A program made the position numbers and the translations under genes. Below, one piece after another: positions 45,500 to 50,888 of a stretch of DNA of 64,000 nt; positions within the stretch are counted from its first letter, which is position 1; each line of letters opens with the position of its first letter. The stretch comes from Azospira oryzae (lineage in GTDB: Bacteria > Pseudomonadota > Gammaproteobacteria > Burkholderiales > Rhodocyclaceae), in contig NZ_SHKM01000001.1 in NCBI RefSeq assembly GCF_004217225.1, positions 906,137 to 970,136 of the forward strand, read 5' to 3'. Under the pieces are notes generated by a model. It ran no database searches and was not told the DNA's origin. It saw only the letters and a program-made list of their open reading frames with translations.

Positions 45500-45561
45500 T
45501 ATCGACTCCGCCCGGAGTCGATAAAAAAGGCGCGGTGGCCGCAAGGCCCCGCGCCTTTTTT
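45500..45561 (+). terminator. Tandem hairpin terminator after lysS
   Basis: A perfect 11-bp hairpin (TATCGACTCCG/CGGAGTCGATA, 45500-45523) is followed at once by an intrinsic terminator, AAAAAAGGCGCGG/CCGCGCCTTTTTT with an inner GGCC-GCAA-GGCC stem. The second can act on both strands, so it also serves the hybrid kinase gene. Confidence 0.9.
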
Positions 45562-45611: not shown

Positions 45612-48407
45612 CTAGTGGCCGCCCTGCTCCATGTAGCGTTCCAGGGCACTGCGGGTATCGGCCAGGAGTTGGGGCAGGCTCTCGCCCAGGCGCCGCACTT
45701 CGGCCGCCTGCCCTTCCCGGGCGGCCGCCTCGACCCGGGCCGCCAGTTCGGACAGGGGCCGGGCACCGATGCTGGCAGCGGCAGACTTGAGGCTGTGGGC
45801 CGCCTCCCGGGCCGCCGCCAGGTCGTCCTGGGCCATGTTCTGCAGGGCCTGGCTGGCCTGGGCAAGGAAGGTGAAAACGAAGCGGGCCAGGAAGATGCTG
45901 CGCACCTCCCCCGCCTCTTCCTGGCGCGCGGCAATGGCGTCCAGCACCGCCGCGTCCAGCAGGGCTCCCGCCTCCCGCTCCGGCCGGGCCTGGACCCGCA
46001 CCTGGGCGCCGCCTTCCGGCGGTCCCAGCCAGTCGGTGAGCAGGGCCACCAGGGCCAGCTCGTCGAAGGGTTTGGGCAGGAAGCCGTTCATGCCGGCGGC
46101 CAGGCAGCGCTGCCGGTCCTCGGCGAAGGAATTGGCGGTGAGGGCGATGATGGCGGTGGGCAGCCGGCCCGCCTGGATCTCCCGCTGGCGCAGCTCCCGG
46201 GAGGCGGTGAGGCCGTCCATGACCGGCATCTGGCAATCCATGAGGATCAGGTCGAAATCCCGCTCGGCCCATTTTTCCAGGGCCTCCCGGCCGTGGTTGG
46301 CCACCTCCACCTGGCAGCCGAAGACCTGCAGCAGGCCCCGGGTCACCTCCTGGTTGGTCAGGTTGTCCTCCACCAGCAGCACCTTGCCGTGGAAGCGGGG
46401 CCGGTTCGGCACCGCAGCGGCGGCCGGGCGCCAGGCGGCCCCCTGCCAGCCGGCAGCCGGCGGCAGGTCGGCACCCCGGGGCGCCACCATGAAGGCCTGG
46501 CCGATGCTGCGCACGAATTCCTTGCGCGACACCGGCTTCGACAGGCGCTGGGCAAAGACCTGGGCCAGTTCCCCTTCCAGGGTGCTGGCGCCGAAGTCGG
46601 AGAGGGCGATCCACACGCCGCCGCAGCGGCGGTGCCAGTCCTGCCAGGTGGCCTCGGGCAGTTGCAGGTAGCACAGGTCGGCCAGCACCGCCTGGGCCGC
46701 GCCCTCGCCCAGGAGCCGTTCCGCCTCGGCGGCATTGCGGGCCAGACGGCAGTCCAGGCCCAGGCTCTGGGCGTAGTCCTGCAGGATCAGGGCCAGGGTA
46801 GGCTGGGGTTCCAGCAGTACCAGGCGGAAGCCCGGATAGTGGATGCCGGTGGGGTTGTCCCGCACCACATGGAAAGGCAGCTCGAAACTGAATTCGCAGC
46901 CCTCGCCGGGACGGCTGGAGACGGTCAGGTCCCTGGCCCCCATCAGACGCACCAGCTCCCGGCTGATGGCCAGGCCCAGACCCGTGCCTTCGGCCCGCCG
47001 GCTGGCGGCTTCCTCGATCTCGGCCGGGGTCTGGGAGGCGGCGCTGGTCTGGGAGTAGGCCTGGAACAGCTTGCCCTGCTCCGATTCGGGAATGCCGGGC
47101 CCGGTGTCGCGCACGGTGAAGCGCAGCAGGATCACGTCGCCCCGCTCCCGGCTGTCGCCGGCGGCCCCCGGACTGCGCTCCACCCGCAGGCAGACTTCGC
47201 CCTGCTCGGTGAATTTGACCGCATTGCCGAGCAGGTTGAAGAGCACCTGCTTGAGCCGGTTGGGGTCCCCCGCCAGGGTCACGGGCAGTTCGCCCTTGAG
47301 ATGCACCGCCAGCTCCAGGCCCTTTTCCCGGGCATTGGGCGCCAGCAGCAGGGCGGCGCTCTCCACGGTGTCGGCCAGGTCGAAGGGCACCGCATCCACG
47401 GTCAGCTTGCCGGCCTCGATCTTGGAAAAGTCGAGCACGTCGTTGAGCACGTTGAGCAGGGTTTCGCCGGAACGCAGGGCGGCCTCGGTCATGCGCCGCT
47501 GGTCGCCGGAGAGGGCCGTGGTCTGCAACAGGCGGATCATGCCCAGCACGCCGTTGAGGGGGGTGCGGATCTCGTGGCTCATGGTGGCGAGGAAGCGGCT
47601 CTTGACCCGGCTTGCCTCCTCCGCCGCATCCCGGGAATGGGTCAGTTCCTCGGTGCGGGAGGCCACCATTTCCTCCAGGGATTCCCGATAGCGGGCCAGA
47701 CGTTCGTCCCGCTGCTCGATCTCCGCCAGCATGGCATTGAAACTGTCGATGAGGCGGCCCACCTCGTCCTCGCTGCCGCTCTCCTCCCGCTCCACCCGCA
47801 GGGAAAAGCGCTTGTGCCGGGTGATGTCCCGGGTGGCCTGCTCCAGGCGCACCACCGGGGCGGCGATGATGTGCTGCAGGCGGCGTGCCGCCAGCACCGC
47901 GGCGAGCATGGAAAGCACCGTCACCAGCAGCCAGATGAGGGCGCCCCGGCCCACCGCATCCCAATAGCCGTCGCGGCTGGCCAGCAGCTCGATGTGGCCG
48001 ACCACGCCGCTGCGGAAGACGATTTCCCGGCTCTCCCGGATGCGGTTCCAGGAGGCCGGCAGCCAGGCCAGGCGCTCCTGCTGCAGGGGGTTGCCGCGCA
48101 GGTAGCGGGCGAAGAGCTGGCCCTGGGCATCGCTGACCAGCACCTCGATCACCGCCGGGTCGGCGGAGAGGGCTCGCAGGGTATCCTGGGCCGCCTTGCC
48201 GTCGTTGAAGACCAGGGGCGCCTCCAGGTTGCGGGCGGTGACGTCGAGCAGGGCCTGCAGGTTTTCCCGGTTGAACTGCTCCACCTCGCGCAGGCCGTGG
48301 ATCAGGGTCAGGCTGGCATAGACCAGCAGGGCCGAGGCGGCCACCAGCATGAGGACCAGGCGCAGCTTTTCGCCGATGGGCAGGGAGCGGAATCTACGGC
48401 GCATCAT
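45612..48407 (-). CDS. Hybrid sensor histidine kinase with CHASE8 sensor and HPt
   Basis: 931 residues. Helix about 17-38; periplasmic CHASE8-like sensor about 42-150 ([36 protein letters not shown]); helix about 155-176; HAMP; coiled coil; HisKA with H278 in [11 protein letters not shown]; ATPase domain with [16 protein letters not shown] and GTGLGLAI. A degenerate receiver-like segment covers about 527-640. A complete receiver follows with VEDN, D724 in [11 protein letters not shown] and K779. A C-terminal HPt carries H871 in [13 protein letters not shown]. This is a BarA-like phosphorelay layout. The start overlaps the YfiR gene stop by ATGA. CHASE8 is also the sensor of YfiN, YfiR's partner in Pseudomonas. 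Confidence 0.92.
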
Positions 48408-48934
48408 CGTGGCCTTCCGTAAATGGTGCGGGCCAGGCGCAGGAGATGGGCGCTGAGCCGGATGTTGGCGCGGCGCAGGGCCGCAAGATTGACGTCGAAG
48501 GCGACCTGGGTGCCTTCCCGGGCCAGGCCCACCATGCAGCCCTGGCTGACCAGGTCCTCGCCTTCGCACACCGTCAGCACCGGCGCCGTCGCCAGGGCCT
48601 GGGTCCACTCCAGGTCCCAGTCCCCCTGGCTGCGCCCGGGGGCGTCGCCGAGGAACAGCACCTGGCAGTCCCGGGCCTCGGCCGGGCGGCTGCGGGGAGA
48701 GACGCCGATGCGCCGCCCGAGCAGGGTCTGGCTGTCCAGGGCGAGCAGGGAATCGACCACCGGCCCCCGGCCGGCGACGCAGATCAGGGTGTGTTTGACC
48801 GACCAGTTGCCCTCGCCCCACTCCGCGTAGTTGGCCAGATTGGCTACCAGGGCCGCCTTCACCGCCGCCTCCGAGGGCGGGTTGGCCAGCGCCCACAGGG
48901 GCCAGCAGCAGAGCAGCAGCAGGCAACGCCTCAC
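48404..48934 (-). CDS. YfiR-family periplasmic protein (DUF4154)
   Basis: 176 residues with a signal peptide (cleavage probably after WALA, about residue 17). The mature part starts NPPSEAAVKAALVANLANYAEW. It ends with the family hallmark VAFDVNLAALRRANIRLSAH followed by LLRLARTIYG. In Pseudomonas YfiR is a periplasmic repressor of the CHASE8 diguanylate cyclase YfiN. The start is a GTG one base after the receptor stop codon. The three genes receptor-YfiR-kinase are translationally coupled. Several cysteines are present (three after the signal peptide), and YfiR is known to be redox-sensitive. Confidence 0.88.
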   Translation of the reverse strand: MRRCLLLLCCWPLWALANPPSEAAVKAALVANLANYAEWGEGNWSVKHTLICVAGRGPVVDSLLALDSQTLLGRRIGVSPRSRPAEARDCQVLFLGDAPGRSQGDWDLEWTQALATAPVLTVCEGEDLVSQGCMVGLAREGTQVAFDVNLAALRRANIRLSAHLLRLARTIYGRPR

Positions 48935-48935
48935 G

Positions 48936-50888
48936 TCAGAAGCCCCAGCTCAGCACGACGCTGAGTTCCCGGCGCAACACGGTTTCCTGGAAGAAGGGCT
49001 GGTCGCCGAATTCCCGGTGCTTGGGCCCCAGGAGATTGCGTCCGATCAGGGAGACTTCGCTGCGCCGGTCCAGGCGCCGGGTCCAGCGCAGGTCGAAGGT
49101 GCCGTAGCCGGCGACGCCGCGCTGGTCCATGGGGCCGACGCCGCGCCAGGTCAGGTCCAGGCGCTGGTTGCGGGACAGGTCCCAGAGGGAGCGGATGAAC
49201 AGCTGCTCCCGGGGAAAGCCGCCCTGGAAGGAGATCAGGGCCGGGCCGACGGGCCGGCTGCTGTAGTCCAGGGCCTCCCGGTACAGGGTGAAGCCGCCGC
49301 GCAGCTGCCAGTGGGCCGCCGCCTGCCAGTCCAGCGCCCATTCCAGGCCCCGGGTGCGGCCCTGGGCGTTGTTGAAGTACATCATGGAACTGGCGCCATC
49401 GAACTCGATGGTCTGCAGGTCCTTGTAATGGTTCTGATAGACCGACACATCGCTGCTCAGGTTCGGCGTCAGCTGGGCCCGCCAGCCGGCCTCCAGGCTG
49501 CGCAGCCGCTCCGGGCGGAAGGCCGGATTGCCAACGGCCGGCAAAGGCCCGACTCCGGGGCCGTTGAAGCGGATGGCCGTATCCACCTGGTTGGGGGAAC
49601 GCACCGCCCGGGCCGTGCCGGCCCACAGGGTGTGGCCGGCGGCGGCGTTCCACACCGCCCGCAGGTTGGGCTGCCATTCGCTGCCGTGGTCGGGAACCCG
49701 CTCCAGCTTGGCCCCGGCGATGATCTGCAGGGTTTCCGGGATGACGGTCCACTCGTCCTGGACAAACAGGTTGGTGACGGTGCGCTGGGAACTGACCGGG
49801 CTGAAGGAGAGCTTGGCCGAACTCACCGAGTCGAAACGGTACTGGCGCCAGCCGCCGCCCCACACCAGCCGGTGGGCCGGGTTCAGGTTGACCGTGTGCT
49901 GCAGATCCACGTCCGCCACGGTCTCTTCCAGCACCGCGCCGGAAGAGGGCTCCCGGCGCCAGGAGTGGTCCACATAGGACTGCACCTGCAACTGGGAGCC
50001 ATCGCCCAGGCGGCGGCTGAGACGGCCCAGCAGGTGCTGGCCGGAAATGTCGTTGGCCGTGGACAGGGGATAGGGAGCACCGCCGCTATGTCCCTGGTAG
50101 GCCTCGCCGTTGATCATCCAGGTGTCGCTGCCGGCGGCGCTGTCGGCGCGGAAGCCGATGCGGTCGGCGCGCCAGGTGTCGCCGGCACCGCTGCCGGTGA
50201 GGGACTGGTGGTCGTCCCGGCTGCGGCTGCGGGCGTAGAGGCGCCAGGCACCGCCATCTTCCGTGGTGCTGCCCCAGCGCACGTTGGCCATGCCCTTTTC
50301 CACGTTACCCACCGCCAGGGTCGCCTGGCCGCCCTGGGTCTCGTGGGCGGAGCGGGTGACGATGTTGATCACCCCATTGACCGCGTTGGCCCCCCACAGG
50401 GCGGCCCCCGGCCCCCGCACCACCTCGATGCGGGCGATGTCGTCGAGGGCGATGTCGTAGGCGTCCCAGAAAACGCCGGAATAGATGGAGTTGTAGATGC
50501 TGCGGCCGTCGATCAGCACCAGCAGCTTGCCGCCGAAGAAGCCGTTGAAGCCCCGGGCGGAGACGCCCCACTTGTTGCCGTCGATCTGGGCCACGTGCAG
50601 GCCGGGCACGGTGCGCAGCAGGTCCGGCAGGGTGGTGGCGCCGAGGCGCTGGATGTCCTCCCGCCGCAGCACGGTGGTGGCGGCCGGCGCCTGGGCCAGT
50701 TCGGAAGGGTGTTTGAGCACGGAGCTGACTTCCGTACGCAGCAGCTCTTCGATGGAAAGGGTGGACAGGCTGGCCAGCTCGGCCGCCACAGGCTCATCCC
50801 CGGCCGCACGGGCCGGTTCCTGGAGCAAACAGGCGGCGCTGCACGAAGCCAGCGCCAGCAGCGCAGAAAAACGCGCCTTGAAAGGCAT
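48936..50888 (-). CDS. TonB-dependent outer-membrane receptor
   Basis: 650 residues with a signal peptide ending near PARA. The STLSIEELLRTEVSSV segment precedes the plug domain (LPDLLRTVPGLHVAQIDGN, GVSARGFNGFFGGKLLVLIDG, RIEVVRGPGAALWGANAVNG). About 22 beta strands follow, ending in the terminal Phe that signals outer-membrane insertion. This subgroup of receptors often lies beside signalling genes rather than uptake genes. No ABC importer is nearby. I see no Fur box or cobalamin riboswitch upstream, so the ligand is open. The ATG at 50888 has AGGGG eight bases before it. A GTG nine bases earlier is possible. Confidence 0.92.
   Translation of the reverse strand: MPFKARFSALLALASCSAACLLQEPARAAGDEPVAAELASLSTLSIEELLRTEVSSVLKHPSELAQAPAATTVLRREDIQRLGATTLPDLLRTVPGLHVAQIDGNKWGVSARGFNGFFGGKLLVLIDGRSIYNSIYSGVFWDAYDIALDDIARIEVVRGPGAALWGANAVNGVINIVTRSAHETQGGQATLAVGNVEKGMANVRWGSTTEDGGAWRLYARSRSRDDHQSLTGSGAGDTWRADRIGFRADSAAGSDTWMINGEAYQGHSGGAPYPLSTANDISGQHLLGRLSRRLGDGSQLQVQSYVDHSWRREPSSGAVLEETVADVDLQHTVNLNPAHRLVWGGGWRQYRFDSVSSAKLSFSPVSSQRTVTNLFVQDEWTVIPETLQIIAGAKLERVPDHGSEWQPNLRAVWNAAAGHTLWAGTARAVRSPNQVDTAIRFNGPGVGPLPAVGNPAFRPERLRSLEAGWRAQLTPNLSSDVSVYQNHYKDLQTIEFDGASSMMYFNNAQGRTRGLEWALDWQAAAHWQLRGGFTLYREALDYSSRPVGPALISFQGGFPREQLFIRSLWDLSRNQRLDLTWRGVGPMDQRGVAGYGTFDLRWTRRLDRRSEVSLIGRNLLGPKHREFGDQPFFQETVLRRELSVVLSWGF

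Follow-up and report, generated by a model that had tools for sequence, protein, structure and literature searches.

A TonB-dependent receptor, a YfiR-like protein and a CHASE8 hybrid kinase in Azospira oryzae: a candidate Yfi-type periplasmic relay

Why should a TonB-dependent receptor (TBDT) be encoded in one tight run with a YfiR-family periplasmic protein and a sensor kinase? The question is raised by a stretch of 64,000 nucleotides of Azospira oryzae DNA (the window), in which an earlier note had read three adjoining genes as a Yfi periplasmic module with a kinase replacing the GGDEF protein and a TBDT replacing YfiB. As an inference from gene content this reading is well supported: the three families are linked genome-wide, TBDT and OmpA-type genes never occurred in the same YfiR locus and the phenylalanine of the YfiR contact motif is kept. 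The trio probably constitutes a Yfi-type periplasmic relay in which the TBDT acts as sensor and a phosphorelay forms the output.

Three coupled genes and their protein families

All three genes lie on the minus strand (Table 1). A single base (48935) separates the receptor stop codon from the GTG start codon of the yfiR-like gene; at the other end of that gene, its stop (TGA) and the kinase start (ATG) overlap as ATGA. The open reading frame (ORF) junctions thus bear out the tight coupling that had been described, and the identities assigned to the three products stood as well, every family scoring above its Pfam cut-off.

The YfiR-like protein is a member of DUF4154, 'YfiR/HmsC-like' (112 bits, cut-off 24.9), and its gene is the only one of this family in the genome. 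Its nearest solved proteins, by sequence and by model, were P. aeruginosa YfiR chains. The AlphaFold model, built from four sequences and serving as a fold check only, matched YfiR structures with template-modelling (TM) scores of 0.68-0.80, though its mean predicted local distance difference test score (pLDDT) was just 55. It also matched 3lkv (TMq 0.56), one of two fold neighbours named by the YfiR crystallographers, the YfiR fold resembling ABC_sub_bind proteins (PMC4655355). In P. aeruginosa, YfiN is proposed to bind YfiR on the conserved face around F151, F162 and I169, which also contributes to the YfiB site, a precedent for one face binding both partners (PMC3375315, PMC4655355). Where this face aligns, the window protein has VAFDVNL.

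For the kinase, the earlier note had staked its reading on a CHASE8 domain within residues 42-150; since the profile search found one at 46-141, above cut-off (58 bits against 27), that test was passed. HAMP, HisKA, HATPase_c, Response_reg and Hpt each scored above their Pfam cut-offs too, and the phosphorylation signatures were present, with the H-box at 277, the receiver Asp in LILMDCQMP at 720 and the HPt His in AHSLKSAA at 870. The locus had been described correctly in nearly every detail; overlooked were kinase residues ~540-650 (window 46440-46790), between HATPase and receiver, which match no Pfam family and may be a degenerate receiver. In the sensor model, with pLDDT 75 and mostly 80-92 in the periplasmic part, a PAS/Cache-like fold is flanked by two long helices; its nearest structures are WalK, CitA and LapD-type periplasmic domains. 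AAVVF, conserved in the periplasmic domain of P. aeruginosa YfiN, is the proposed YfiR site (PMC3375315); the window kinase retains this hydrophobic motif with F67. The motif Phe was found in 96 of 97 YfiR-linked sensors versus 2 of 9 unlinked Cache/CHASE8 sensors, a rough comparison because some of the nine belong to a different Cache family. Another hybrid kinase encoded in this genome (L061, G000:C1:979532-979876) gave a sub-threshold CHASE8 match of 24.6 bits, and neither YfiR nor TBDT was detected adjoining it.

The receptor consists of a plug (3e-23) and a TonB barrel (2e-29) by Pfam, which found no N-terminal STN domain; the plug begins at residue 68, counted on the longest ORF, and EVSSVLK (residues 53-59) is a putative TonB box. 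Its best named relative, at 79% identity, is from Azospira sp. I13, where the trio is likewise present. A scan of genome contigs for relatives returned three only. The present genome has 17 TBDT plugs. In NCBIfam release 20, three curated models (NF053590, NF053591, NF053592) carry the names TOL_0244 TBDT, TOL_0243 YfiR-like and histidine kinase near YfiR-like, after locus tags of Thalassolituus oleivorans. The window trio matched them over their full length (the receptor over positions 2-603 of 604) at 597/645, 80/125 and 144/194 bits of the respective cut-offs. By NCBI's rule its proteins are therefore relatives and not members; the side-by-side arrangement of the three families is found in the window as well.

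No OmpA-motif ORF was present in the window locus, where the TBDT lies upstream and a convergent lysS-like gene downstream, so that a YfiB counterpart is missing. Nor was a cognate response regulator gene found near the trio in the window.

Table 1. Features of the trio locus, in positions of the window
Feature	Position	Strand	Remarks
TonB-dependent receptor	48936..50888	-	ATG start, 650 aa; Plug + barrel; nearest curated family NF053590
YfiR-family periplasmic protein	48404..48934	-	GTG start, 176 aa; PF13689 3e-32
CHASE8-HAMP-HisKA-HATPase-REC-HPt hybrid kinase	45615..48407	-	931 aa; Pfam domains above cut-offs
LSIEELL peptide, receptor residues 44-50, directly before putative TonB box	50739..50759	-	motif comparison
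CHASE8 sensor domain, kinase residues 46-141	47985..48272	-	PF17152 1e-15
APLVFND motif, kinase residues 63-69, F67; counterpart of YfiN AAVVF	48201..48221	-	
Terminator-like stem-loop between kinase and convergent lysS-like gene	45531..45557	.	pattern scan of both strands, consensus match only

Linkage of receptor, YfiR and sensor across genomes

The survey of the three families that the earlier note had called for was made in both directions: from YfiR in 150 genomes of the order, and from the receptor in 299 genomes of the phylum. In the order, YfiR was followed directly by CHASE8 in the same orientation at 40 of 50 places. When the window and a small number of named records were added to regions from both samples, 116 YfiR loci could be read. 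CHASE8 followed downstream of YfiR in 97 of them and a TBDT stood directly upstream in 74 (68 of 109 when the window and six loci fetched with a TBDT query were excluded), where the expected chance of a TBDT is ~0.3% per neighbour (~64 plugs in 22 Mb). In the receptor-first sample, 32 of 59 TOL_0244-type TBDTs lay within 1 kb of YfiR and 15 more within 12 kb; of the remainder, 10 were in YfiR-bearing genomes and 2 in genomes without YfiR. YfiR was present in 48 of the 50 genomes with such a receptor. Linkage, whose absence the earlier note would have taken as a refutation, was strong in the forward as in the reverse counts, and the gene arrangement is not due to chance. What is directly observed is the order of the genes, their families, the recurrence of the trio, the conserved contact motif and strong co-occurrence. 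The trio was also seen on plasmids (L092, L093, L094), in Sphingobium, including the MOBP mobilizable pSRL1 of S. indicum B90A, and in Indioceanicola.

The output was a kinase in 76 of the 116 loci and GGDEF in 23. A TBDT was commoner with kinase than with GGDEF outputs (56:9 vs 20:14, p=0.005, a statistic that ignores relatedness). On the YfiR tree, about 10 output changes were counted, six within the TBDT-linked part, so output swapping is frequent. A receiver gene stood near the kinase in 21 of the 76 kinase loci of relatives, and in four it was a REC-GGDEF gene directly after the YfiR-linked kinase (L050:531-1469, of the same family, L156, L188 and L192), which hints that some of these kinases may still end in cyclic di-GMP (c-di-GMP). 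At L072:2045-4687, a YfiR domain continues directly into a histidine kinase and receiver within a single ORF, a natural fusion of these families.

On the input side, a motif search found OmpA/YfiB-like genes in none of the 74 TBDT-bearing YfiR loci and in 12 of the 42 others. In the YfiR tree, the OmpA type is mainly a single 13-member branch, and the whole tree shows two changes between TBDT and OmpA. Pairwise distance correlations were 0.41 for YfiR-TBDT, 0.24 for YfiR-CHASE8 and 0.14 for YfiR-kinase core.

A receptor clade, the proposed relay and its rivals

The YfiR-linked receptors share an N-terminal feature. Immediately ahead of the TonB box, 67 of 72 linked TBDTs have LxxE(E/D)L, versus 3 of 74 unlinked ones (cross-validated area under the curve 0.975), and in a TBDT tree calculated without the N-terminus 71 of the 72 fell inside one clade of 83. 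For one of the unlinked bearers (L068), the genome (G140) also has a YfiR without receptor beside a CHASE8 kinase (L056). The sister clade carries a different N-terminal signature, SEQDFLxELPVVLSVSRL. Where flanks were readable, this genome included, its members adjoin an ABC_sub_bind protein, with a Cache-type GGDEF-EAL protein or kinase nearby where flanks could be read further. The nearest solved relative of this ABC_sub_bind protein is again 3lkv, and because this structure links it to the YfiR fold, a common theme is suggested: a TBDT, a periplasmic adaptor of binding-protein fold, a Cache-type sensor and a variable output. A parallel set of this kind occurs in the present genome outside the window (L264:2359-7742; G000:C1 ~990.4-995.7 kb), where a sister-clade TBDT, an ABC_sub_bind protein of 329 aa and an sCache_4-HAMP-GGDEF-EAL protein are encoded in a tight run. 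An ABC_sub_bind gene is close to a sister-clade TBDT in four other genomes too (G014, G067, G111, G032).

In the relay that we favor, a TBDT of the dedicated clade would bind or transport a ligand at the outer membrane. Its N-terminal periplasmic segment with LxxE(E/D)L and TonB box, perhaps released or rearranged on TonB action, would then bind or sequester YfiR. The seat of YfiR on the kinase CHASE8 domain, at the Phe-containing motif also used by YfiN, may shift in response, and the signal, crossing by way of the membrane helices and then HAMP, would reach HisKA; a His-Asp-His transfer within the kinase, over its receiver and HPt, would carry it on to an unlinked response regulator. We infer all physical contacts, the sign of control, the ligand and the final regulator, repression being assumed from YfiN. 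A wider generalization, which we put forward tentatively, is that the clade represents a second kind of TonB-dependent transducer: its LxxE(E/D)L helix would dock YfiR and gate CHASE8 sensors whose outputs, kinase or c-di-GMP, are interchangeable, and the sister clade would do likewise with an ABC_sub_bind adaptor of related fold.

Several observations weigh against the relay. Since the linked TBDTs make up almost one clade, the N-terminal motif may reflect ancestry and not a docking site, and we dropped it as independent proof of docking. The mutual exclusion of TBDT and OmpA is real in the sample; as the YfiR tree shows only about two switches, we rejected the idea that it stands for many independent events. 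Some YfiR-TBDT pairs have no neighbouring CHASE8 protein, and some YfiR-kinase pairs have no TBDT. Top scores of residue covariation between YfiR and CHASE8 (97 pairs) did not rise above the YfiR-kinase-core control. P. aeruginosa YfiR has a second pair of cysteines that does not recur at the corresponding positions of the window protein. Finally, neither binding or phenotype data for any TBDT-YfiR pair nor a report of contact between receptor, YfiR and kinase was found in the literature searched (subscription papers lay outside it).

One alternative is that YfiR controls the kinase as in YfiNR, in response to redox, folding or envelope stress, and that the receptor is not an upstream sensor but an uptake target under shared regulation or a member of the regulon. 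P. aeruginosa YfiR indeed senses periplasmic redox without YfiB (PMC3375315), and an adjacent TBDT was missing in 20 kinase loci. This view would, however, leave unexplained why one TBDT clade and YfiR associate almost exclusively, in both directions, and why the window receptor gene is translationally coupled to those of YfiR and the sensor. TBDTs also accompany GGDEF outputs and are therefore not tied to a single output kind, and we consider such a passive receptor unlikely.

YfiR might also serve as a ligand-binding carrier in the periplasm, accepting the ligand from the receptor and offering it to CHASE8, with no sequestration by the receptor. Its likeness to ABC_sub_bind proteins (PMC4655355) and the match to 3lkv would fit, as would the sister clade, whose receptors, here and in other genomes, are paired with an ABC_sub_bind protein and a sensor of Cache type. 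At 176 aa, however, YfiR is about half the size of such binding proteins (329 aa), no ligand is known for it and the conserved face of P. aeruginosa YfiR binds proteins (PMC4655355), which makes this role quite improbable. That the three genes adjoin by mere operon convenience without sharing a pathway is hardly credible, for although function is not provable from gene neighbourhood alone, the identical order recurs at tens of loci in distant families, the linkage holds in reverse and YfiR is found fused to a kinase in one ORF.

Relation to known systems

The proposed relay of TBDT, YfiR and kinase is best compared with YfiBNR (TpbB) of P. aeruginosa and YfiR-DgcN-YfiB of E. coli. There, as in the window with its ATGA overlap, YfiR is encoded directly beside a CHASE8-HAMP transmembrane protein, and the contact Phe motif is common to both (LEAAVVFAD in E. 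coli DgcN, LEAPLVFND in the window kinase). In contrast to these systems, the output in the window is not GGDEF but a hybrid kinase with HisKA, HATPase, REC and HPt, and the input is a TBDT instead of the OmpA-type lipoprotein YfiB. The likeness of the kinase to BarA/GacS/TorS-type hybrid kinases is one of domain order only; it stayed below the NCBIfam cut-offs for TorS (423/676 bits) and BarA (410/890 bits).

Malone et al. 2012 (PMC3375315), working in silico, reported divergent Yfi-like modules, mostly without YfiB and often with GGDEF-EAL, HPt or kinase outputs. Their module from Thauera sp. MZ1T combines YfiR with a YfiN-type sensor and a hybrid kinase output, as in the window; TonB receptors, unlike in the window trio, go unmentioned in the main text of that paper. 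The NCBIfam names show that curators had linked the TBDT, the YfiR-like protein and the nearby kinase. The idea of the trio is therefore less new than the earlier note thought: the kinase half is already in print and the receptor half is found in annotation models only, no published TBDT-YfiR link having turned up in the literature searched. Apparently new, within the same literature, are the TBDT as input partner, the dedicated clade with LxxE(E/D)L and the sister clade with an ABC_sub_bind protein of YfiR-like fold. The sole experimental datum found there on a relative of the trio concerns TOL_0244 of T. oleivorans, for which proteomics showed a sevenfold rise on n-C28 alkane relative to Tween 80 and which was likened to OmpS, the alkane-sensing receptor of Alcanivorax (PMC6304351). 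This response points to a first candidate ligand class.

The presence of the trio in very many proteobacteria suggests a common route for outer-membrane signals to the cell interior. YfiBNR, studied as a biofilm switch with YfiR as the repressor, would be a side branch if most Pseudomonadota YfiR proteins serve TonB receptors and kinases. Cache/PAS-type periplasmic sensors working with a separate extracytoplasmic protein, as proposed here, are familiar from WalK-YycH/I and LapD-LapG, which, unlike the window system, have partners of other families and no TBDT. With the TonB-dependent transducers of the FecA-FecR-FecI type, the trio would share the logic of passing a TBDT signal to the inner membrane. 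Unlike FecA, however, the window receptor has no STN domain, and its partners are YfiR and a kinase and not an anti-sigma and an extracytoplasmic function (ECF) sigma factor. If most YfiR proteins of the phylum do serve TonB receptors and kinases, two-component signalling would be open to outer-membrane receptors by a general route that bypasses the FecA-FecR-sigma pathway.

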